Both the position numbers and the translations under genes were made by a program. This document shows positions 2,432-39,051 of a DNA stretch of 64,000 bases, piece after piece. The stretch is from Methanocalculus alkaliphilus. Its GTDB lineage: Archaea; Halobacteriota; Methanomicrobia; Methanomicrobiales; Methanocorpusculaceae. Under the pieces are notes generated by a model, which saw only the letters and a program-made list of their open reading frames with translations, was not told the origin of the DNA and did no database searches. The stretch spans positions 124,001-188,000 of the forward strand of contig NZ_JALJYG010000001.1 in assembly GCF_024170505.1 (NCBI RefSeq). Direction: 5' to 3'. Within the stretch, counting starts at the first letter, position 1. Each line of letters opens with the position of its first letter.

Positions 2432-3250
2432 TCAACCGGTGCTCCCGTCATAATGCCGCCCTGCGAGGGCGGCAGCATATATCACGGCTCCCAGAAGGAT
2501 GATCATCGCTCCTGAAGGAAGATCAAGGGTATATGAAAGGGTAATTCCTGCAAGAACCGTGACAACCCCGATTAATATGGCGGTCACCATCATCGTCGGC
2601 AGCGTCCGGGAAAACAGCCGTGCGGTTGCAGCAGGGAGTGTCAGAAGAGCGATGACGAGGATGATCCCGACGACCGATATAAGAAGGACGACGGTGACTG
2701 CGATCAGAAGAAAGAGAAGAAGCGTCAGCCCACTGACCGGCAGCCCCATGATTTTTGCATACTCCTCATCAAAAGTGACCGCTGCCAGCTGATTAAAGAA
2801 GACCGATACAACCGTCAGGATCAGCAGAAGAAGCAGCCCCATCATCATGATATCCTGACGGGGAACAAGCAGAATATTTCCAAAGAGATAACTGAAGAGA
2901 TCCGGCGCATATCCGGGTGTGAGTGCAATAAAGATGACGCCGGCTGCCATACCGGTTGCCCAGAGCGCACCAGTTATGGTATCGGTATCCTGAAGCTCAT
3001 GGGTCCTGAGATACCAGATCAGAAATGCTGCACCAATTGTAAAGAGAAATGCGCCAAAGAGGGGATCGATCCCCAGGAAATAGCCAAGTCCCACCCCCCC
3101 GAAGGCTGCATGAGAGATGCCTCCACTTGTTGTGACCATCCTTCTGACGACGACGAAACTGCCGGTGATCCCACAGGCAATGGCAGCGATAACTCCGGCA
3201 ATGATTGCATTCTGGAAGAAACCATACCCAAGTATCTCAAGCATCATCAT
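2432..3250 (-). CDS. znuB: Zinc/manganese ABC transporter permease (ZnuB family)
   Basis: 272-residue ABC-3 family permease that forms the membrane channel of a Zn2+ or Mn2+ importer. About eight hydrophobic segments run from residue 10 to 262, with the family regions GGISHAAFGGVGLGYFLG after helix 2 and VVGIILVIALLTLPAATARL before the C-terminal helices. The start overlaps the ATPase gene by 14 bp. Operon order on the minus strand is repressor, binding protein, ATPase, permease, so this is the last gene. Which metal it carries is inferred from family and operon, not proven. Confidence 0.88.
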   Translation of the reverse strand: MMMLEILGYGFFQNAIIAGVIAAIACGITGSFVVVRRMVTTSGGISHAAFGGVGLGYFLGIDPLFGAFLFTIGAAFLIWYLRTHELQDTDTITGALWATGMAAGVIFIALTPGYAPDLFSYLFGNILLVPRQDIMMMGLLLLLILTVVSVFFNQLAAVTFDEEYAKIMGLPVSGLTLLLFLLIAVTVVLLISVVGIILVIALLTLPAATARLFSRTLPTMMVTAILIGVVTVLAGITLSYTLDLPSGAMIILLGAVIYAAALAGRHYDGSTG

Positions 3251-3998
3251 GCTCCCTCAGTACCCGGTGCGGGACCCCATGGGCGATGAGATCGACAGGG
3301 CAGCCATACACCGATGTGAGCATCTCATCGGTTATCATCGCATCACCATGGGTGTAGAGATGGCGATTCAAACATGCAATCCGATTTACCTTCCCGGATA
3401 TCGCCCCGATATCATGCGTAACGATGATCACCGTCATCTCGTCAAGAAGTGTATTGATAAGACTGAAGAACTGCTCTTCAGTCGGAGCATCGACATAGAC
3501 GGTCGGCTCATCAAGGATCAGAAGGCGTGGCTCTCCTGCAAGTGCCCGGGCAATGATCACACGCTGCTGCTGGCCACCGGAGAGGGTCGAGAGGGGGAGA
3601 TCCCCGACACCGGAGAGGCCGACCATGCCAAGCGCCTGCTCCGCTGCCTCATGATCCTTATCCCGGTATCTCCGAAGCAGGCCGGGAATATGGGAGAGAC
3701 GCCCCTGCAGCACCATCTCTGTAACCGTGATCGGGTATGAGAAGTCGAAGGTATGGAACTGGGGGACATATCCGATCATCCGCCTGCCTTCACCAGGTGG
3801 ATGGCCGAAGATGGATATTCGCCCCGATGAGAGGGGGAGAAGACCGAGAAGGGCTTTGAGCAGGGTTGTCTTCCCCCCGCCGTTTGGCCCGATGACTGCG
3901 GCGAAGTCATGCTCCCATACCTCCCAGGATACACCATCAAGGACGACATTCTGTCCATACCGGACGGATACATCCTCCATCAGAAGAGCCCGTGTCAC
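3237..3998 (-). CDS. znuC: Zinc/manganese ABC transporter ATPase (ZnuC family)
   Basis: 253-residue cytoplasmic ATPase that powers the metal importer. Walker A is GPNGGGKTT (near residue 38), the ABC signature is LSGGQQQRV, Walker B is LLILDEPTVYVD, and the H-loop is IIVTHD. The sequence ends like metal-type (not amino-acid-type) ATPases. The start is GTG at 3998, which shares a GTGA overlap with the stop of the binding-protein gene, so translation is probably coupled. Confidence 0.9.
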   Translation of the reverse strand: MTRALLMEDVSVRYGQNVVLDGVSWEVWEHDFAAVIGPNGGGKTTLLKALLGLLPLSSGRISIFGHPPGEGRRMIGYVPQFHTFDFSYPITVTEMVLQGRLSHIPGLLRRYRDKDHEAAEQALGMVGLSGVGDLPLSTLSGGQQQRVIIARALAGEPRLLILDEPTVYVDAPTEEQFFSLINTLLDEMTVIIVTHDIGAISGKVNRIACLNRHLYTHGDAMITDEMLTSVYGCPVDLIAHGVPHRVLREHDDA

Positions 3999-4891
3999 CT
4001 CATCGCCTCTTCAAGAGCTTCAGCAACATGAATGAAGTTATTGAGATACTCTTCTGCAAGCGGATCGATCACGACAACCATCGCACCCGCCTCTGCTGCG
4101 ATCACCTCTGCCGTCTTCTGTGAGAACTGCGGCTCGACAAAGATGATGGAGATCTCATCCTCACGGGCAATCCGGACTATCTCTGCAATATCGCGTGCAG
4201 TCGGTTCCCTCCCTCCGAGATGGACGGCGATCTGTTCCAGATCATACTCCCTCGCAAAGTATCCCCAGGCATCATGGGTGACGATGAAACGCCTGATACG
4301 GAGATCCGCCAGATCCTCCTGGATTCGGGCATCGATCCCACTGATCGCCTCATGGTACCCGTCAAGGTTCTCCCGATAGAATGCCTCACCATCAGGATCG
4401 ATCAGAATGAGGGATGTGGCAATCGATTCAGCCATAACCCCCCCGTTCGCTGGAGAGAGCCAGATATGTGGATCATATCCTCCATCGCCATGACCACAGC
4501 CGCAATCATGGTGATCATCCATCAGGATCAGATCAATACCATGAGAGAGATCAACGATCCGCAGGTGGGGATTTTGCGAGGAGAGGCGTCCAACAAGCTG
4601 ATCCTCAAATGGAAAGAGACCTTCCCCAACCCTGAAGAAGAGATCGGACCGGGATATTCTGCGAATCTGGCCGGGTCCCGGTTCAAAGGTATGAGGCTCG
4701 GAACCCGGAGGAACAACGACTGTCACCGAGACGCGATCCCCTCCGATCACCTCAACCATCTCTTTCATCGGAGGGATCGTGACCGCGATCTGGAGTACAC
4801 CATCCGAAGAGACGGTATCATTCCGGATGCATCCCGAATAGAAGGATGCGATAAGGACGAGCAGGAGAATCAGGAGTACAGCCCTCATCAT
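3995..4891 (-). CDS. znuA: Zinc/manganese ABC transporter substrate-binding lipoprotein (ZnuA family)
   Basis: About 298 residues. The N-terminal signal ends in a lipobox (FYSGC), so the protein is a membrane-anchored lipoprotein outside the cell. The usual four metal ligands are present: His in GSEPHTFEPG, His in YDPHIWLSP, His in VTHDAWGYF and Asp in VVIDPL. Before the second ligand lies a His/Asp/Cys-rich loop (DDHHDCGCGHGDGG) like the flexible zinc-capture loop of ZnuA. The frame can open with TTG directly after the repressor stop, but ATG at 4891 with GGAG seven bases upstream is the better start. Contrast the binding protein at 35320, which lacks these ligands. Confidence 0.9.
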   Translation of the reverse strand: MMRAVLLILLLVLIASFYSGCIRNDTVSSDGVLQIAVTIPPMKEMVEVIGGDRVSVTVVVPPGSEPHTFEPGPGQIRRISRSDLFFRVGEGLFPFEDQLVGRLSSQNPHLRIVDLSHGIDLILMDDHHDCGCGHGDGGYDPHIWLSPANGGVMAESIATSLILIDPDGEAFYRENLDGYHEAISGIDARIQEDLADLRIRRFIVTHDAWGYFAREYDLEQIAVHLGGREPTARDIAEIVRIAREDEISIIFVEPQFSQKTAEVIAAEAGAMVVVIDPLAEEYLNNFIHVAEALEEAMR

Positions 4892-4894
4892 CAA

Positions 4895-30997: not shown

Positions 30998-31793
30998 GCC
31001 GGATCTCCACCTGCATCCCTTCTCTGAGATCCTCAGGTGAGAGGGAATAGAGGGCATCAAAGAGCCCTGTCCGGAATGAATATGGTCCTGCGGCTCCGGG
31101 GGCAGCTATCTCCCCGGCTCTGCCGAATGCCACAAGTGCCGCAACGGCAGCCTTCGACGGAGATGAAGCAACAGCAGCAAAGGCCCCGACGAGAGATGCT
31201 GCCATGCATCCTGTTCCCGAGAGGCGATCCATCATGGGATGGCCGTTTCTGATGAGATAGACCTCGCCATCACCGGTGACGACATCGACCTCTCCGGTCA
31301 TGGCGACGATGGTCCCTGTCACCTCTGCGCACCGGCGGGCAACATCGACGGGATCACCGGAGCAGCCATATGAATCGACACCCCGGACAGTGCCACCGCT
31401 CCCGGCAAGGACACCGATCTCGCCTTCATTCCCCTTCAGAATTGTCACGTTGCACTCCCTCAGGATACGAAGTGCACTTTCGGTCCTGAGCGTCGTCGCC
31501 CCGACACCGACCGGATCAAGGATGACCGGAATTCCACGCTCATTTGCGGCCTTCCCTGCGATGATCATCGCGTCAACCTGGCCAGGCCAGAGGGTTCCAA
31601 TGTTCAGAACAAGTGAAGACGCAATTCCTGCCATCTCCCCAGCTTCTTCTGCGGCGCCCGCCATTACCGGCGCAGCACCGGCAGCGAGGGTGATGTTTGC
31701 ACAGTCATTGATGGTGACGGTGTTGGTGATATGATGGACGAGAGGCCGTTCCTTACGGACCTCAGATAAGAGCTCTCCACAGTGCTGTTTCAC
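30987..31793 (-). CDS. thiM: Hydroxyethylthiazole kinase
   Basis: About 268-residue ribokinase-fold enzyme that phosphorylates hydroxyethylthiazole with ATP in thiamine salvage. Motifs: PLVHHITNTVTINDCAN, PVILDPVGVGATTLRTE, ILKGNEGEIGVLAG and MDRLSGTGCMAASLVGAF with the catalytic cysteine. The frame is open to 31865; GTG at 31793 gives the usual length, but no Shine-Dalgarno sequence is visible, so the start is uncertain. It heads the thiM-thiE-flavoprotein operon. No TPP riboswitch could be recognised upstream. Confidence 0.87.
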   Translation of the reverse strand: MKQHCGELLSEVRKERPLVHHITNTVTINDCANITLAAGAAPVMAGAAEEAGEMAGIASSLVLNIGTLWPGQVDAMIIAGKAANERGIPVILDPVGVGATTLRTESALRILRECNVTILKGNEGEIGVLAGSGGTVRGVDSYGCSGDPVDVARRCAEVTGTIVAMTGEVDVVTGDGEVYLIRNGHPMMDRLSGTGCMAASLVGAFAAVASSPSKAAVAALVAFGRAGEIAAPGAAGPYSFRTGLFDALYSLSPEDLREGMQVEIRRGI

Positions 31794-31879
31794 ATGTACG
31801 TATTGGTTATGAAGAGAGAAAAGTGGTATGGAAGGGGAAGCGCATACAGAGTATCCTCTCTTCAAAATAATCCGATTGG

Positions 31880-31888
31880 TTTATATAC
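31880..31888 (+). promoter_or_regulatory. TATA box of the exporter operon
   Basis: TTTATATAC about 45 bases before the ATG at 31926 is a good archaeal TATA box. It predicts a leader of about 15 to 20 bases that includes the GGAG ribosome-binding site. Confidence 0.6.
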
Positions 31889-31925
31889 ACCCATGATAGT
31901 TTTCCTATTATTCCGGAGAGCTCCT

Positions 31926-33164
31926 ATGCACCAGATTTCTGCCCTTCACCGTACCATCCTGATCTTTTTTGTCTTCTGTATACTCTTCATCGGAGGAGCC
32001 GGAGCAACAGGCCCGGCAGTCATCATCACTGATCATTCCGTTACCCCTGCGGTCCTGATGCCCGGGGAGCAGGGGCTCATCAGGGTAACCCTGATGAATA
32101 CTGCAACAACCGCACAGAAGACGGATGCAACGATACTCACTGCCGTTCAGACAGTAACATCATCGGAGAGTGCAGATGTGCCGCTGATCGTCGAGAGCGT
32201 CTTCCTGGACGGGCGTGGCGATATTTCCGTTCTGGATGGTAATGCAGCCTTCACAGGTGTCATCGGGCCGGGCCAGTCCATTGATCTCACCTTCCTGATC
32301 AAAGCCCCGGAGAAGGAGGGGGTCTTCTTTCCACGCCTGAGGGTACGGGTGAAAGGCGGCGAGAGTACTATCTACCCGATACCGGTAAATGTCAATATGC
32401 CGATCTCCCATATCAGAATCCCGGATATCCAGATATCACAGCGGGATCTCCCGTTTGTCCAGCCCGGTGAAACAATCAATACAGAACTCACGGTTGAAAA
32501 TATCGGAAAGAGCCCTGCACATGATATCCTCATCTCCCTAGGAGATGGTGAGGCGATGATCGCCCCTGTCGGGGCCAGGGCATCATCATCCCCGATACTC
32601 CCATCGGGAAGCGATCTGATGATGCCACTCTCATTCCGTGTCAGCAGGGAGATAGAACCCGGGCTCTACTCACTCCCGATAACTATCCGTTATCACAGAG
32701 TTGATGGAACGCTGGTGCAGGAGACGGCATCATACTCTGTTGATGTGCGGGGATCAGCCGCACTTGCCATCTCCTCGGTGAGGACAGAACCTGTTACACT
32801 CACAGCTGGGGAGCAGTTCAATCTCGTCATCAGGCTTGAAAACACCGGAACGGGAAGAGCTACCAGCGTCTATGCAGATATTGATATTCCGATGAGAGGG
32901 AGCCGTGAAGCCTTCATCGGAACGATCCGCCCGGGAAATGATGCTCCGGCGGTCTTCCGACTGACCGCCGGTGAGAGCGGGGATATCCCTTATACACTCA
33001 CCGTCCGGTACTCTGATGATTATGGGGATCATGAGAGCAGGGAAGATCTTATCCAGGTTGTACAGAGCAAAGGATTTGTTCTTCCCATCGCTGCTGCCAT
33101 TCTCATACTGATCATCATCGGAGCATCAGGCTATTATCTGCTCAAAAAGAAGAGAACGGAGTGA
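31926..33164 (+). CDS. Secreted, membrane-anchored protein with NEW3/CARDB-like domains
   Basis: 412 residues. A signal peptide (HRTILIFFVFCILFIGGAGA) precedes three or four Ig-like beta domains of the NEW3/CARDB/COG1361 S-layer type, with repeated phrases such as PGEQGLIRVTLMNTATT, PGETINTELTVENIGKS and AGEQFNLVIRLENTGTG. A single C-terminal helix (LPIAAAILILIIIGASGYYLL) followed by KKKRTE anchors it with its bulk outside. ATG 31926 has GGAGAG upstream; the frame is open earlier, but that part lacks sense. Its position before an FtsX-type permease and ATPase suggests it is the extracytoplasmic partner (adaptor) of that exporter. Confidence 0.8.
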   Translation: MHQISALHRTILIFFVFCILFIGGAGATGPAVIITDHSVTPAVLMPGEQGLIRVTLMNTATTAQKTDATILTAVQTVTSSESADVPLIVESVFLDGRGDISVLDGNAAFTGVIGPGQSIDLTFLIKAPEKEGVFFPRLRVRVKGGESTIYPIPVNVNMPISHIRIPDIQISQRDLPFVQPGETINTELTVENIGKSPAHDILISLGDGEAMIAPVGARASSSPILPSGSDLMMPLSFRVSREIEPGLYSLPITIRYHRVDGTLVQETASYSVDVRGSAALAISSVRTEPVTLTAGEQFNLVIRLENTGTGRATSVYADIDIPMRGSREAFIGTIRPGNDAPAVFRLTAGESGDIPYTLTVRYSDDYGDHESREDLIQVVQSKGFVLPIAAAILILIIIGASGYYLLKKKRTE

Positions 33165-33170
33165 CCGGGC

Positions 33171-34376
33171 GTGTTTTCATGGGTACGGGTCTCACTCTTC
33201 CTTGCCTGGCGTGCAATTCGGCGGGGAGGGAAGACCGGGATGCTCTTAAATATCCTCATCATCGCGATGGTCTTCACCAACATGATCATCTTCTCCGGAT
33301 TTATCGGAGGGGTTGTTGTTCTTTTCCATGACCAGACGGTCGATTATGTCACGTCAGACATTGTGATACGCCCCGATCATGATGAACGGACACTCCATCA
33401 TGTGGATGAACTCATGGAGCGGATCAACAGGGTGCCGGGTGTTGCCCGTGCATCAGCCCGGTATTCGATCGGCGGAACCCTGACGCATAAAGGATCGATG
33501 GTGAGTGTCCCGGTAACGGCGATCAATCCCCGGGATGAAGTGGAGGTCACAAAGATTCACGAACATATGATACAAGGAAGTGACTTCCTCTCCCCCGGCG
33601 ACGATGGTATCCTGCTTGGGATGTTTGTTGCTGGCCATGAGGATCCCGGCATGGACTTCTTTGATTCACTCGGGGGTGTCCGGGCAGGCGACTCTGTTGA
33701 GGTGATGTACGCAAACGGTGTCGGCAGGACATACAGTGTGAAGGGAGTGTTTGCGACAAAATCCTATCAGGCAGATTACATGGCTTTCATCTCATGGGAG
33801 GAGATGAACGAGGTTCTGGGGTTTGAGAATACAGAAGCGACAGAGGTGCTTGTCAGGGCATCAGGGGGTGAGGATCTCGGCCAGGTGAAGATGCGTCTTA
33901 TGGAATATGGAGTCCAGGAGCGGGTTGAGACCTGGGAAGAGGCGATGCTCCTTGAGATAGATGATATGGTGGAGACCTTCCTGATCATTGACCGTATTGC
34001 AATCGTCGTCAGTATGATCATTGCGATTGTCGTTATAGGAATCGTCTTTACGATCAAGACCATCAACAACCGCCGACAGATCGGCATTCAGAAGGCGATC
34101 GGGATCACAAACCGAATCATCATCGGCGGATATCTGATGCAGGCACTCTTCATCTGGTTGTTTGGCACCATCCTCGGGATGGTGATAGTGAATCTCCTGA
34201 TGGTCTACTTCTCGGCACATCCGCTTGAGTTTCCTGATGGGGATGTCTCTCCGATCTTTGAGATGTCGGTGATGCTTATGAATGCGGGGTGGCTGGCACT
34301 TGCATCCGGGCTTGCCGGATTAATACCGGCATGGCGGATCACCCGGGAGAATACCCTTGAGGCGATGCGGGGATGA
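33171..34376 (+). CDS. MacB/LolC-type ABC transporter permease (FtsX family)
   Basis: 401-residue permease with the four-helix layout of the FtsX/MacB/LolCE family: one helix near residues 20-50, a large external domain (about 55-275), and three helices at the C-terminus (about 278-300, 325-350, 365-390). Characteristic parts are NRRQIGIQKAIGITNRII after helix 2 and the terminal GLIPAWRITRENTLEAMRG. The start is GTG, six bases after the preceding stop. Such transporters use mechanotransmission to move lipoproteins, peptides or signals rather than import nutrients. The substrate is unknown. Confidence 0.85.
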   Translation: MFSWVRVSLFLAWRAIRRGGKTGMLLNILIIAMVFTNMIIFSGFIGGVVVLFHDQTVDYVTSDIVIRPDHDERTLHHVDELMERINRVPGVARASARYSIGGTLTHKGSMVSVPVTAINPRDEVEVTKIHEHMIQGSDFLSPGDDGILLGMFVAGHEDPGMDFFDSLGGVRAGDSVEVMYANGVGRTYSVKGVFATKSYQADYMAFISWEEMNEVLGFENTEATEVLVRASGGEDLGQVKMRLMEYGVQERVETWEEAMLLEIDDMVETFLIIDRIAIVVSMIIAIVVIGIVFTIKTINNRRQIGIQKAIGITNRIIIGGYLMQALFIWLFGTILGMVIVNLLMVYFSAHPLEFPDGDVSPIFEMSVMLMNAGWLALASGLAGLIPAWRITRENTLEAMRG

Positions 34377-34380
34377 TTGA

Positions 34381-35049
34381 ATGATCGAAGTGACTGATCT
34401 CACAAAGACCTACCGGATGGGGGACGTGCTCGTTCATGCATTAAACGGGGTGAGCATCAAGATCGGTGAAGGGGAGTTTGTCGGTATCGCCGGTGCGTCA
34501 GGGAGCGGGAAGTCGACACTCTTTCATATGATCGGCCTTCTCGATACACCGACAGGCGGTTCCATCTCCATCTCCGGACAGAATGTCCTCAGACTCTCTG
34601 ATTATGAGAAGACTCTGTTCCGGCTGGAATGGCTCGGTTTTGTCTTTCAGGAGTATGCTCTCTCCCTGGAGCTGACCGCATATGAAAATGTCATCCTCCC
34701 GCTGATGGCGCGAGGTATCCCCGAAGACGAGATGGAGAGCAGGGCCCTGACCATGCTTGAGCATGTGGGGCTGGGTCCACGGGCCGATCATCTTCCAAAA
34801 GAGCTCTCCGGCGGCGAACAGCAGCGGGTCGCCATTGCCCGCGGGCTTGTCAATGATCCTGCCATCCTGCTGGCCGATGAACCGTGTGCAAACCTTGACT
34901 CAAAGAACTCAAAAGCTGTCCTTGACCTCATCAGGGAGATCAACCAGGAGAATAATCAGACGGTGCTGATGATATCGCATGAAGACTGGCATCAGCAGTA
35001 TTTTGATCGTCTGATCCGGCTCTCAGATGGGAAGATTGTGGAAGGGTGA
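34381..35049 (+). CDS. MacB/LolD-type ABC transporter ATPase
   Basis: 222-residue ATPase partner of the FtsX-type permease four bases upstream. Walker A GASGSGKST, Q-loop in FVFQEYALSLELTAYENV, signature LSGGEQQRVAIARGL, Walker B ILLADEPCANLDS and H-loop MISHED. The spacing of Q-loop and the SLELTAYENV phrase are typical of the LolD/MacB group. It completes a three-gene export operon with the anchored surface protein. Confidence 0.9.
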   Translation: MIEVTDLTKTYRMGDVLVHALNGVSIKIGEGEFVGIAGASGSGKSTLFHMIGLLDTPTGGSISISGQNVLRLSDYEKTLFRLEWLGFVFQEYALSLELTAYENVILPLMARGIPEDEMESRALTMLEHVGLGPRADHLPKELSGGEQQRVAIARGLVNDPAILLADEPCANLDSKNSKAVLDLIREINQENNQTVLMISHEDWHQQYFDRLIRLSDGKIVEG

Positions 35050-35319: not shown

Positions 35320-36291
35320 TCACTCTTTTCTGATCAGAAAAGCCGCAACTGCCAGGATCCCCCCGATGACCGGTATCAGCGCCATTGAGGATCGCTCAGC
35401 AGGGACCGGCTCCCCGGGTATAGATGCTGCCTCAGGATCGACCGTCTGTTTATTATGCCTGATGACCCCGGGGAGAGAGTCCACATCGGGGAGTGAACGC
35501 GGGAAGTTGGTAAAAATAACCCTCTCAGCCATGATCCCATGGTCATGGAGCGCCTCTTCGATGCCTTTTGCCATCTCGCCTGACTGCATGTTCTCAATGA
35601 CATAACGGACATTGCGGTACTGCTCCGGGTCGGCATTGATAGCATCGATCACCTTCACCGGGGTGTGCCGGCCCTGCATATAAAATTCCGGTCCGAATAT
35701 CGAGACGACATTGAGCCCAAGCCAGGACTCTGCCGCCTCACGCTGCCAGACCATCACAATGACATCCTGGCCCCCGATTCTCTCCTTCTCTCCGCCACTC
35801 AGATCCTCTGCCTCAATCGACCTGAGATATGCACGATAGTTCACCTCAAAGTCCTCCCCATGTGCCGGATTAAGGCTGATCAGGATCTCTTTAATCTCCT
35901 CGGCAAATGTCGATGCCTGCTCAGGGGTGTTCCAGATCTGCTGATCAGTTGTTATCCAGTCCGGCGTTCTTCCGAAGTTTGCATCAAGGAACCTATCAAC
36001 AGCCTGTTTTGCGATATTGTCCATGGTCGGGGAGTTGTGGTGGAAGAAGTATTCTGCCTCCACAATGGCATCTTTCTGCATCTGGATTCGTGTATCGATG
36101 ATATCACCCTGAAGATGCGGGCAGACGGTCGGATCGGCAATTGTGGTGACGCTGACATGATCCCCCCCGATTGCGGAGATGGGGTCAGCATAGACGGTCG
36201 TTGTTGCCACGATATTCATTGCTCCGGCAGCCGGCACTCCGGCAATGAATAAAACGAAAAGGATGAAAAGTAGTTGTTTCATTGTACTCAT
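35320..36291 (-). CDS. Metal-type ABC transporter binding protein, ligand-poor, with C-terminal membrane anchor
   Basis: About 323 residues. A signal peptide is followed by a ZnuA-type (cluster A-I) fold (MNIVATTTVYADPISAIGG). Unlike ZnuA, most metal ligands are altered: only the first His remains (CPHLQGD), HIW is QIW, HDAWGYF is replaced by VWQREAAESW, and the last Asp site reads TNFPRS. There is a double His in FFHHNSP instead. A C-terminal helix (ALIPVIGGILAVAAFLIRKE) replaces the lipobox as anchor. It is the last gene of an FmdE-ATPase-permease-binding protein operon. It may bind another metal or a metal complex. Confidence 0.8.
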   Translation of the reverse strand: MSTMKQLLFILFVLFIAGVPAAGAMNIVATTTVYADPISAIGGDHVSVTTIADPTVCPHLQGDIIDTRIQMQKDAIVEAEYFFHHNSPTMDNIAKQAVDRFLDANFGRTPDWITTDQQIWNTPEQASTFAEEIKEILISLNPAHGEDFEVNYRAYLRSIEAEDLSGGEKERIGGQDVIVMVWQREAAESWLGLNVVSIFGPEFYMQGRHTPVKVIDAINADPEQYRNVRYVIENMQSGEMAKGIEEALHDHGIMAERVIFTNFPRSLPDVDSLPGVIRHNKQTVDPEAASIPGEPVPAERSSMALIPVIGGILAVAAFLIRKE

Positions 36292-36334
36292 TTCTATCAA
36301 TGAGTTATGGTATAGTACACATATTAATAAATTA

Positions 36335-37174
36335 TCATTTACCCTGAGGAACTCCTTTTGGCACCCTCCGTTTCGGAGAGATGATCACGGCGATGACGAA
36401 GAGGGCACTGAATGATACAGCGATCAGCGGGGCTACCGGGAGGGAGTAAGAAAGCCCGATCCAGGCTCCTGTAACACTTACCGTTCCGGCGACTGCTGGC
36501 GCAAGGATGAAGAGCCCCCGGACGGAGTTACAGAACTGGTAGGCTATCGCTGCCGGTGTGACGAGCCAGACATAGAGGAGGAGCCCGCCGATGATATGGA
36601 TTGAGAGTGCAACCGTGATGGCGATCATAAAGAGAATTGCATAGAGGATCGGCCGGACCCTGATACCTGAAGCCTCCGCAATCTTTCTGTTGAATATCAC
36701 GGCTGTTATCTCCTTGAAGAAAACAATGACAAAGAGGACCGCCAGAATGGAGATGACGGCAAGGGCATAGATATCAGATCGATACAGTGAGATGACATTC
36801 CCAAAGAGGAGTGCACTGGTATTGACACCTGTCGTATGATACTGCATGTAGGCAATGAAGAAGATTGCAACAGCCATCGTCATCCCAAAGAGTATGCCAA
36901 GGATTGTATCGGTCGGCATCCTTGCCTTATCAGAGAGCGGGCCAAGAAGGAGTGCCAGTGTCAGGCTTGCCAGAATGGCGGCAATGGTCCCGTCAACTCC
37001 GAAGAAGAGCCCGGCAGCGGCACCAGCGAATGCCGCATGCGCCATCGTAAACCCGATTGACGAGATGTTCATCTGGGTGATGATCACCCCGAGGATACTG
37101 CAGGCAATTGAGGCGAAGAGCATCGCTTCGACGGCACGGCAGATGATATTGTTTGCGATGAAGAGATCAAGCAT
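36335..37174 (-). CDS. ABC-3 family metal transporter permease
   Basis: About 279-residue permease of the ZnuB/MntB family, second copy in this window. About eight helices; family signatures are SSIGFTMAHAAFAGAAAGLFFG and the helix pair IIGGLLLYVWLVTPAAIAYQF. ATG 37174 is chosen because it gives the normal N-terminus and overlaps the ATPase gene by 8 bp; the frame extends upstream to 37255 but that part reads as shadow. The GLLLYVWLVTPAA region replaces the LLTLPAA of ZnuB, in line with a different substrate, though this is inference. Confidence 0.85.
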   Translation of the reverse strand: MLDLFIANNIICRAVEAMLFASIACSILGVIITQMNISSIGFTMAHAAFAGAAAGLFFGVDGTIAAILASLTLALLLGPLSDKARMPTDTILGILFGMTMAVAIFFIAYMQYHTTGVNTSALLFGNVISLYRSDIYALAVISILAVLFVIVFFKEITAVIFNRKIAEASGIRVRPILYAILFMIAITVALSIHIIGGLLLYVWLVTPAAIAYQFCNSVRGLFILAPAVAGTVSVTGAWIGLSYSLPVAPLIAVSFSALFVIAVIISPKRRVPKGVPQGK

Positions 37175-37910
37175 TTGATCGACCTGAGAGACCACGCACC
37201 CGCCCTTCAACCTCCGATGCCGAACAGGTGTTGTTAAAGGTGATTGTGCCATCATTCATCACAATCACGCGGATCGATCCATTCTCCGGCAGTGCATCGA
37301 ATGCATGAGAGACCATTACAATGGTACATCCACGCCTGGTGAGATCAGCAAGGATCCCACATATAAAGTCCCGTGTGGCGAGATCCAGGTTGGAGAACGG
37401 CTCATCCAGGAGGAGGATATCCGGTTGCTTGGCAAGGCTCTGGGCAATGAGCACCTTCTGCTGCTGCCCCCCTGAGAGCTTTCCAATCGGCCGGTCGGCG
37501 AGATCCCGTATTCCAAGCAGATCCATCGCCTCTTCAGCGATCCGCCGGTCCTCTTCACCCGGCCTCCTTCCATATCCGAGGAGGCCAAACCGCCCCATCA
37601 TCACCACATCGGAGACGATGAACGGCGCAAGAGGATCGAAACTGAAGTTCTGAATGACGTAGCCAACCCGCCTGCGAACGCTATTGCCATCCTTTGCAAC
37701 ATCGATTCCGCCTGTGACAACCCGCCCACTGACAATCGGGAGCAGGCCGTTAATCGTCTCAAGCAGTGTCGTCTTCCCCGCCCCGTTCGGTCCGCCGATA
37801 ATGACAAACTCGCCCGGATTGATCGAGCAGCTGATCCCCCGAATCACCGGGAGTGCCGACCCCTCGTATGCCGTCTGAACATCGGAGAGTTGGATCATCC
37901 CCTTTGTCAT
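37167..37910 (-). CDS. ABC transporter ATPase, metal type
   Basis: 247-residue ATPase. Walker A GPNGAGKTT, signature LSGGQQQKVLIAQSL, Walker B ILLLDEPFSNLD and H-loop MVSHAFD. The ATG overlaps the FmdE-domain gene stop as ATGA. The C-terminal 30 residues after NDGTITFNNT are basic and variable. It powers the second metal-type importer. Confidence 0.87.
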   Translation of the reverse strand: MTKGMIQLSDVQTAYEGSALPVIRGISCSINPGEFVIIGGPNGAGKTTLLETINGLLPIVSGRVVTGGIDVAKDGNSVRRRVGYVIQNFSFDPLAPFIVSDVVMMGRFGLLGYGRRPGEEDRRIAEEAMDLLGIRDLADRPIGKLSGGQQQKVLIAQSLAKQPDILLLDEPFSNLDLATRDFICGILADLTRRGCTIVMVSHAFDALPENGSIRVIVMNDGTITFNNTCSASEVEGRVRGLSGRSNA

Positions 37911-38374
37911 CTGACACTCCCGCCTTCACTCGTCCCGATGCTGAAGAGATCAGCGTCATCATAGCCAAACATCGCCTCGGCGAGGCCCTCGACCCTCGCT
38001 TCGTAATCCTTCCCGTCTCCAATCGTTCCCTCGGGTATGGTGAATGGGTGCGGAATAATTCTGAGAATCTCCCCATCCCGTTCAAACTCGACAGCAACTG
38101 TGTCAGACACGATGATCTCGATGTTCCGCTTCCCCAGTGTACACCCACTGCCAAGTTGGATACCGTCTGCGAGACAGGACTGGGGTGGCGTTCCTGAGCA
38201 GTAGATGCGTGCCCTGAGATCGAATGGATTATTGCAGAAATTATCCCGGACGTACGTTCCAATCCTGTATCCAATGACGATGAAAGGCCCAAGATGGCCA
38301 TGAAATGCTGCGAGATCCTCTAATGAGAAGTCCTGTTTGAGGTGCATGTACCTGCAATGATCATGGTTCTGCAT
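37907..38374 (-). CDS. FmdE-domain protein heading a metal-type ABC operon
   Basis: 155-residue protein of the FmdE family, first found as an extra gene of the molybdenum formylmethanofuran dehydrogenase operon. Motifs are AFHGHLGPFIVIGYRIG, YCSGTPPQSCLADGIQLGSGCTLGKRN (the cysteine-rich metal site, in parts) and the His-rich beginning QNHDHCRYMHLK. FmdE proteins bind metal through the conserved His and Cys. It lacks the C-terminal zinc finger of full FmdE. Placement before, and coupling with, a metal-type importer suggests metal handling or sensing. A start at 38347 is an alternative. Confidence 0.8.
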   Translation of the reverse strand: MQNHDHCRYMHLKQDFSLEDLAAFHGHLGPFIVIGYRIGTYVRDNFCNNPFDLRARIYCSGTPPQSCLADGIQLGSGCTLGKRNIEIIVSDTVAVEFERDGEILRIIPHPFTIPEGTIGDGKDYEARVEGLAEAMFGYDDADLFSIGTSEGGSVR

Positions 38375-38392
38375 GATGATCTGTATGCATTG

Positions 38393-38402
38393 ATGTTATA
38401 AA
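38393..38402 (-). promoter_or_regulatory. Probable TATA box of the FmdE-ABC operon
   Basis: On the minus strand TTTTATAAC lies about 25 bases before the first possible start (38374), a spacing that predicts a very short leader. No palindrome like that of the znu operon is seen here. Confidence 0.4.
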
Positions 38403-38616
38403 ATAGTGGTTTGATGCTACGATGATGAGTGGAATCACGGAGGTCAATGAGATACAGATACGAGACACACCTCAAACAGAAGATCCCTGGTCCTGTCAGG
38501 TTCGTGTCAGATGAGTATCCGTTATCCTGCAGTCCATACTTCTGAGACACAAACTCAGTCGAAGGAAATTTTATGGTGTCGTGAAAGATAGTATAACAAA
38601 ATACGGGAGATGAAAA

Positions 38617-38805
38617 ATGCAAATACAGCTTACAGCCATTATTGAAAAGGAAGGCGATGGCTATGTATCATTCTGCCCCGAATACGACATTTCAAGCCAG
38701 GGTGATACAGTTGAAGAAGCCCGTAATAACCTTCATGAGGCCTTAGAGCTCTTTTTTGAAACCGCATCTCCTCAGGAGATTCAGTCACGATTCGCCCCGT
38801 TTTAA
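38617..38805 (+). CDS. HicB-family (UPF0150) protein, apparently without HicA
   Basis: 62-residue protein with the compact HicB/UPF0150 fold: QLTAIIEKEGDGYVSFCPEY, then SSQGDTVEEARNNLHEALEL. This is the RNase-H-like part of HicB antitoxins; there is no C-terminal DNA-binding extension. GGGAGATG precedes the ATG. No HicA toxin (double-stranded RNA-binding fold with conserved His) is found on either side, so it may be an orphan with another role. A minus-strand frame after it (about 38926 to 38810) without start may be a gene fragment. Confidence 0.75.
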   Translation: MQIQLTAIIEKEGDGYVSFCPEYDISSQGDTVEEARNNLHEALELFFETASPQEIQSRFAPF

Positions 38806-38978: not shown

Positions 38979-39051
38979 CGCCGCCAACAGGACTCGAACC
39001 TGTGACATACTGGTTAACAGCCAGTCACTCTACCAACTGAGTTATGGCGGC
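38979..39051 (-). tRNA. tRNA-Asn (anticodon GTT)
   Basis: The minus strand folds as a 73-base tRNA. The acceptor stem is GCCGCCA with TGGCGGC and discriminator G. The anticodon loop CTGTTAA with anticodon GTT reads Asn codons AAC and AAU. The T loop is GGTTCGAGTCC. The 3' CCA is not encoded. There is no intron. It lies alone between an orphan HicB gene and a small regulator. Confidence 0.95.

Follow-up and report, generated by a model that had tools for sequence, protein, structure and literature searches.

A predicted ABC-3 importer linked to FmdE in methanogens, with an apparently rebuilt binding-protein pocket

Genes of the locus

The window, by which we mean the whole 64,000-nucleotide stretch of a Methanomicrobiales genome analysed here, contains a four-gene operon on the minus strand (38374-35320) that encodes, in order, an FmdE-domain protein, an ABC ATPase, an ABC-3 family permease and a ZnuA-fold binding protein (Table 1). 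The reading frames of all four genes are intact. A preliminary description of this DNA had presented them as overlapping genes; their order and the FmdE/ATPase and ATPase/permease overlaps were recovered, whereas the best start of the binding-protein gene, ATG 36291, lies 43 nt after the permease gene, so that this last pair does not overlap. The start of the permease gene was moved from 37255 to ATG 37174, following its relatives. Pfam models supported the assignments, with 65.6 bits for the core domain of FmdE (PF02663, cut-off 22.9), 109.7 bits for ABC_tran in the ATPase, 158.1 bits for ABC-3 in the permease (PF00950, cut-off 20.1), which retains the transmembrane His of this family (MAHAAFAG), and 61.8 bits for ZnuA in the binding protein (PF01297, cut-off 29). 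Among the curated NCBIfam models, FmdE had no match and the other three proteins had none above cut-off. The closest named protein relatives were from Methanofollis, Methanolinea, Methanoculleus, Methanoregula and Methanospirillum.

Table 1. Features of the operon and its surroundings in the window.
Feature	Coordinates	Strand	Description
FmdE-domain protein (PF02663)	37907..38374	-	155 aa; core domain only, without zinc finger
ABC ATPase	37167..37910	-	247 aa; ATGA overlap with fmdE
ABC-3 family permease	36335..37174	-	279 aa; 8-nt overlap with the ATPase gene
ZnuA-fold binding protein	35320..36291	-	323 aa; signal peptide and C-terminal membrane anchor
Promoter region	38375..38450	-	TATA-like box TTTTATAAC, about 30 nt 5' of the fmdE start
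ZnuABC	2432..4894	-	
MacB/FtsX-like ABC system	31782..35049		convergent with the operon
HicB/UPF0150-like ORF	38617..38805	+	divergent from fmdE
tRNA-Asn	38979..39051	-	about 600 nt upstream of fmdE

The same window carries a normal ZnuABC system, as the preliminary description had stated, and the His ligands are present in its ZnuA. In the window, the operon has no nickel-related neighbours. The MacB/FtsX-like system, which comprises a CARDB/NEW3-type protein, an FtsX permease and an ATPase, also occurs near the FmdE operon at another locus (L127, genome G123). The short HicB/UPF0150-like ORF gave a weak Pfam match below cut-off and has no recognised partner, and its sequence is 86% conserved in a congener, G004. 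The tRNA-Asn gene was the sole credible match of an Rfam scan and was not found in the syntenic stretch of G004. A conserved 368-aa neighbour (cluster c4) was discarded, as its position and sequence were judged to indicate an ORF antisense to the operon.

Metal-site residues of the binding protein and FmdE

The binding protein gave an AlphaFold2 model with a pLDDT of 88, and its top Foldseek matches in the PDB (MntA, YfeA, PsaA, AztC, ZnuA and TroA) have the fold of cluster A-I, whose members are described as recruiting metal ions directly, while those of cluster C are described as binding chelates (PMC5666155). We mapped its ligand positions by profile-profile alignment (hhalign) against canonical ZnuA from 12 archaeal loci, which aligned with a probability of 98.4% and an E value of 9e-15. 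Of the four ligands of cluster A-I proteins (His, His, His/Glu, Asp/Glu), the first His alone is kept, canonical His68 pairing with His59, and the others are replaced throughout the family. Canonical His143 (DPHIW) aligns with Q118 (QQIW), at a position that varies among relatives, and canonical His207 lands on V181/W182/Q183; the Asp of the last loop corresponds to T261/N262, a placement made by secondary structure outside the hhalign match. These results agree with the preliminary description, which had seen a ZnuA fold with one of four ligands, Gln for the second His, VWQ in the region of the third, no Asp site, and a C-terminal membrane anchor, the last matching a hydrophobic segment at residues ~304-320.

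We then compared 48 related binding proteins from outside Methanocorpusculum. The second His position is unconserved in this set, the third reads V-W-Q and the Asp position T-N, while C57, Q61, Q70, W112, W120, W182, Q183, W190, E233, N234, M235, Q236, S237, T261 and N262 are invariant; His59 is absent once, being Asn in L041. The conserved residues of the pocket are C57, H59, Q61, W120, N121, W182, Q183, E233, N234, M235, Q236, T261 and N262. In the diverged Methanocorpusculum branch, H59, E233, N234 and N262 are retained, but C57 is replaced by V and W-Q by R-I. The preliminary description had named a normal zinc site rebuilt from alternative His/Asp residues, together with zinc-controlled expression, as what would speak against its reading. 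No replacement set of His, Cys, Asp or Glu residues forming a normal zinc site was conserved at the ligand positions of the 48 relatives beyond C57/H59, nor did any new grouping of such residues point to a site for a bare ion, and a rebuilt zinc site was rejected. Since the ligand changes are fixed in relatives and the pocket is near-invariant, they do not resemble decay; the pocket appears instead to have been rebuilt, a reading that rests on the alignment and on loop positions, and the predicted ligand set argues against a zinc-importer role for the operon.

Foldseek matched the FmdE of the operon with the solved proteins 2glz and 2gvi, in which a metal is bound by FHGHxC plus a second Cys (PMC2954224). 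The operon protein reads FHGHLGP at this motif, with H25 and H27 kept, Gly29 where the solved relatives have Cys, and C67 in addition, so that one of the four metal ligands is Gly. All 18 aligned FmdE sequences, the operon's own and those of relatives, share FHGHLGP, and H25, H27 and C67 are invariant among them, as are C7, C59 and C78. The solved protein 3d00 also lacks part of the metal site, indicating that HxHxC plus Cys does not strictly define the family (PMC2954224). The core domain, the HxH and one Cys, and the metal-transporter neighbourhood are thus shared with the PF02663 proteins 2glz, 2gvi and 3d00, whereas the ABC-3 transporter partner and the missing zinc finger set the operon protein apart. 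Its two paralogues in the same genome keep both the metal-site Cys and the zinc finger; one adjoins FecCD-type ABC genes and the other an ABC ATPase of another type. The loss of a ligand in FmdE had been missed by the preliminary description, and it means that the binding protein and FmdE of the operon have each departed from canonical metal sites. In a crystal of the D. hafniense FmdE, the metal site held a mixture of Zn and Ni (PMC2954224).

The operon and its surroundings in relatives

Of the 232 genomes searched with a profile, all from the class, about 63 gave strong matches. Gene order (FmdE, ATPase, permease, binding protein) is nearly always kept across Methanomicrobiales and other families of the phylum, and a search with an FmdE profile located this operon in two further families, in five genomes; in the genomes placed by kinship in Methanocorpusculum, the binding-protein gene comes first. 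Among 40 loci from 39 genomes, 39 carry FmdE, and the one that lacks it is a second copy in G198. The search for FmdE beside ABC-3 permeases that the preliminary description had proposed shows a linkage that recurs, and we regard both the importer and its link with FmdE as well supported and very probably real. The binding protein is absent from the seven congeners. In one of these, G004, the syntenic locus is kept between flanks that are 72-86% identical; fmdE is intact (L108, G004:C8, 5987-6518; dN 0.15, dS ~1.7-1.9), and the segment with the ATPase, permease and binding-protein genes is cleanly missing. Loss of this segment is the simpler reading, in which case FmdE may be useful alone, or the loss may be recent.

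Nickel transport and regulation genes are linked to the operon in several lineages of relatives. At L154 (G461) the operon lies beside CbiM, CbiQ, CbiO and two DUF4198 proteins, which we take to be NikK-like. NikK and NikL are proposed components of nickel transport (PMC545781). The operon at L151 (G248) is surrounded by CbiX, two NikR, CooC, FecCD/BtuF-type genes and CbiM/Q/O, that at L152 (G257) adjoins CbiM/CbiQ and ZnuABC, and CbiM lies within 9 kb of the operon at L145 (G010) as well as in G009 and G012. In total, CbiM was near the operon at 4 of 40 loci against about 0.7 expected (p ~0.006, a rough value uncorrected for kinship). CooC occurs near the operon in four lineages (L122, L155, L156, L150 and L157, besides L151; Methanoculleus-like G046, G056 and G070, and also G147, G239 and G248). 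ZnuABC adjoins the operon in two lineages, Methanospirillum and G257 (L142, L144, L044, L046 and L152), so that the context is not purely nickel, and CobN, ChlI/D-like and FecCD/BtuF-type genes are found near L126, L137 and L141. NikR is encoded in all 106 well-assembled genomes and CbiM in nearly all genomes, indicating that nickel uptake is covered without the operon and that a correlation of presence with the operon would be uninformative. Class I SAM methyltransferases of one cluster are encoded close to the operon at 14 of 40 loci, and those of a second type at seven; neither type was seen around the operon in the window. Archaeal pilin-like proteins (PF07790) were observed in pairs or sets beside the operon at L120, L126, L132, L137, L138 and L141, often accompanied by FecCD/BtuF-type genes.

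Upstream of fmdE, at -76/-77, three genera of the Methanoculleus/Methanolinea group have the palindrome GTRKGAAAT-N10-ATTTCATAC, which is operator-like, unique in its genome and the best match there; it is similar in its half-sites and its 28-bp length to the NikR box GTATGAT-[N13/14]-ATCATAC (PMC545781). In G239 and G266, two genomes of another family, a unique TAACAC-N13-GTGTTA upstream of fmdE resembles the reversed NikR box described in the same paper. No operator palindrome was recognised in the promoter region of the window. None of the CbiM genes tested had these palindromes in its upstream region, and a regulon shared with these genes was rejected; an unbiased scan of all lineages likewise showed no general excess of palindromes of NikR length (27-28 bp). 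Given the absence of the sites at these CbiM genes and the flat scan, we count the NikR-like palindromes in some lineages only as a hint of NikR control.

Possible substrate and role of FmdE

The loss of the ligands for a bare ion, the tie to FmdE and the nickel genes in relatives together suggest that the substrate of the operon is probably nickel, possibly in chelated form. With its single His and Cys and its conserved Trp, Asn, Gln and Met, the pocket resembles the chelate-binder type more closely than the direct recruiters, from which we infer import of a complexed metal. We therefore think it rather likely that the substrate is not zinc and is probably complexed, and we tentatively favour, at a little less than even confidence, a methanogen ABC importer for a complexed metal, most likely nickel, over one for free Zn2+ or Mo/W oxyanions. 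The suggestion of the preliminary description that this second system carries another metal or a chelate fits the family-wide ligand loss and the near-invariant pocket. In such an importer, the membrane-anchored binding protein would catch the metal complex in its pocket, where a single His and perhaps a Cys would be available to the metal and Trp, Asn, Gln and Met would surround the chelator, and the permease and ATPase would carry the complex inward. FmdE, translated together with the ATPase, might then accept the metal or strip the chelator at its HxH/Cys site and pass the metal on in the cytosol, as an acceptor or release factor. The fuller form of this proposal, in which a cluster A-I binding protein re-evolved as a nickel-chelate receptor with FmdE as its matched cytosolic demetallation or acceptor protein, is doubtful.

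The proposed principle has an analogue in E. coli NikA, which, according to PMC12086673 and its reference list, takes Ni-(L-His)2 as its ligand and depends on one His for uptake; here too a metal-chelate complex may be bound with one protein His. NikA belongs to a different cluster (C) and is not homologous to the binding protein at that level, and chelate binding is not established for cluster A-I proteins. With ZnuABC and the other cluster A-I importers (ZnuA, PsaA, TroA, AztC, YfeA; PF01297, PF00950) the operon shares the binding-protein fold, the permease and ATPase types and His59; it differs from them in three of four metal ligands and in its pocket, carries fmdE, and is separate from the genome's own ZnuABC. 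The NikKLMQO/CbiMNQO ECF transporters, which may serve the same metal as their neighbour in relatives, are transporters of another type and lack a classical binding protein.

The strongest competing reading, possible though on the unlikely side, is that another divalent metal or complex (cobalt, zinc or iron) is imported and that the nickel neighbours mark a general metal island. CbiM/CbiQ proteins serve cobalt or nickel, the CobN, ChlI/D-like and FecCD/BtuF-type neighbours suggest cobalt/corrinoid or other tetrapyrrole metabolism, and ZnuABC adjoins the operon at five loci; against this stand the NikR pair at L151, the NikK-like proteins at L154 and a binding protein without zinc-type ligands. 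Alternatively, the binding protein could carry a non-metal or tetrapyrrole ligand on which FmdE acts as an enzyme. This would suit an aromatic and amide-rich pocket whose only conserved potential metal ligands are His59, itself replaced in L041, and Cys57, invariant Cys, Asp and Lys residues of FmdE that resemble an active site, the unexplained density at bonding distance from the equivalent Cys in the 2gvi crystal (PMC2954224), and the methyltransferase cluster at 14 loci. Since cluster A-I proteins are described as recruiters of Mn, Fe or Zn (PMC5666155) and metal genes recur beside the operon, we consider it unlikely.

Mo/W handling tied to formylmethanofuran dehydrogenase, the idea put forward in the preliminary description, draws only on the name and history of FmdE and is very improbable, as the gene context led us to reject it: genes for subunit C (fmd/fwdC) were near the operon in none of the 22 genomes checked, the one on the same contig of the source genome lies ~157 kb away, and the context in relatives points to nickel. 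The binding protein is moreover of the divalent-cation class, and just 13 of 208 PF02663 genes examined adjoined genes of the Mo formylmethanofuran dehydrogenase (PMC2954224). The patchy distribution of the operon and the retained fmdE in G004 could also reflect a degenerate zinc importer on its way to loss, but conservation across the family already contradicts this: the replacements are fixed and the pocket is near-invariant in 48 proteins from several families, and the frames in the window are intact, making this reading hardly credible.

Axelrod et al. (PMC2954224) reported metal-ion transporters next to most PF02663 genes, so the general association has been known since 2010; what is new is a conserved ABC-3 subtype with a pocket that appears rebuilt. 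We found no report of an FmdE-linked ABC-3 subtype in the literature searched, the scope of which did not extend to most subscription journals. Structures of FmdE have been solved since 2010 and it has no established function, and one subtype locked to one transporter offers a concrete way into that function. Methanogens depend on nickel for F430, hydrogenases and CODH; if our favoured reading of a complexed-nickel importer is true, a chelate-type route would bear on their growth in sulfidic, metal-poor conditions, and a zinc-type binding-protein fold could switch its mode of recognition. The fuller form of the proposal, if correct, would represent archaeal metallophore-type nickel uptake together with a first defined role for FmdE, and cluster A-I, whose substrates have been described to date as bare ions of Mn, Fe and Zn, would gain a nickel-chelate receptor.

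The binding protein itself varies in architecture among relatives. In Methanofollis-type genomes (L006/L134 in G060, L005/L129 in G035, L135 and L136) it is 520-795 aa long and has either one complete binding domain or two in tandem, ahead of an extra extracellular domain and the anchor, and at L126 (G043) two binding-protein genes lie one on each side of the FmdE, ATPase and permease genes.
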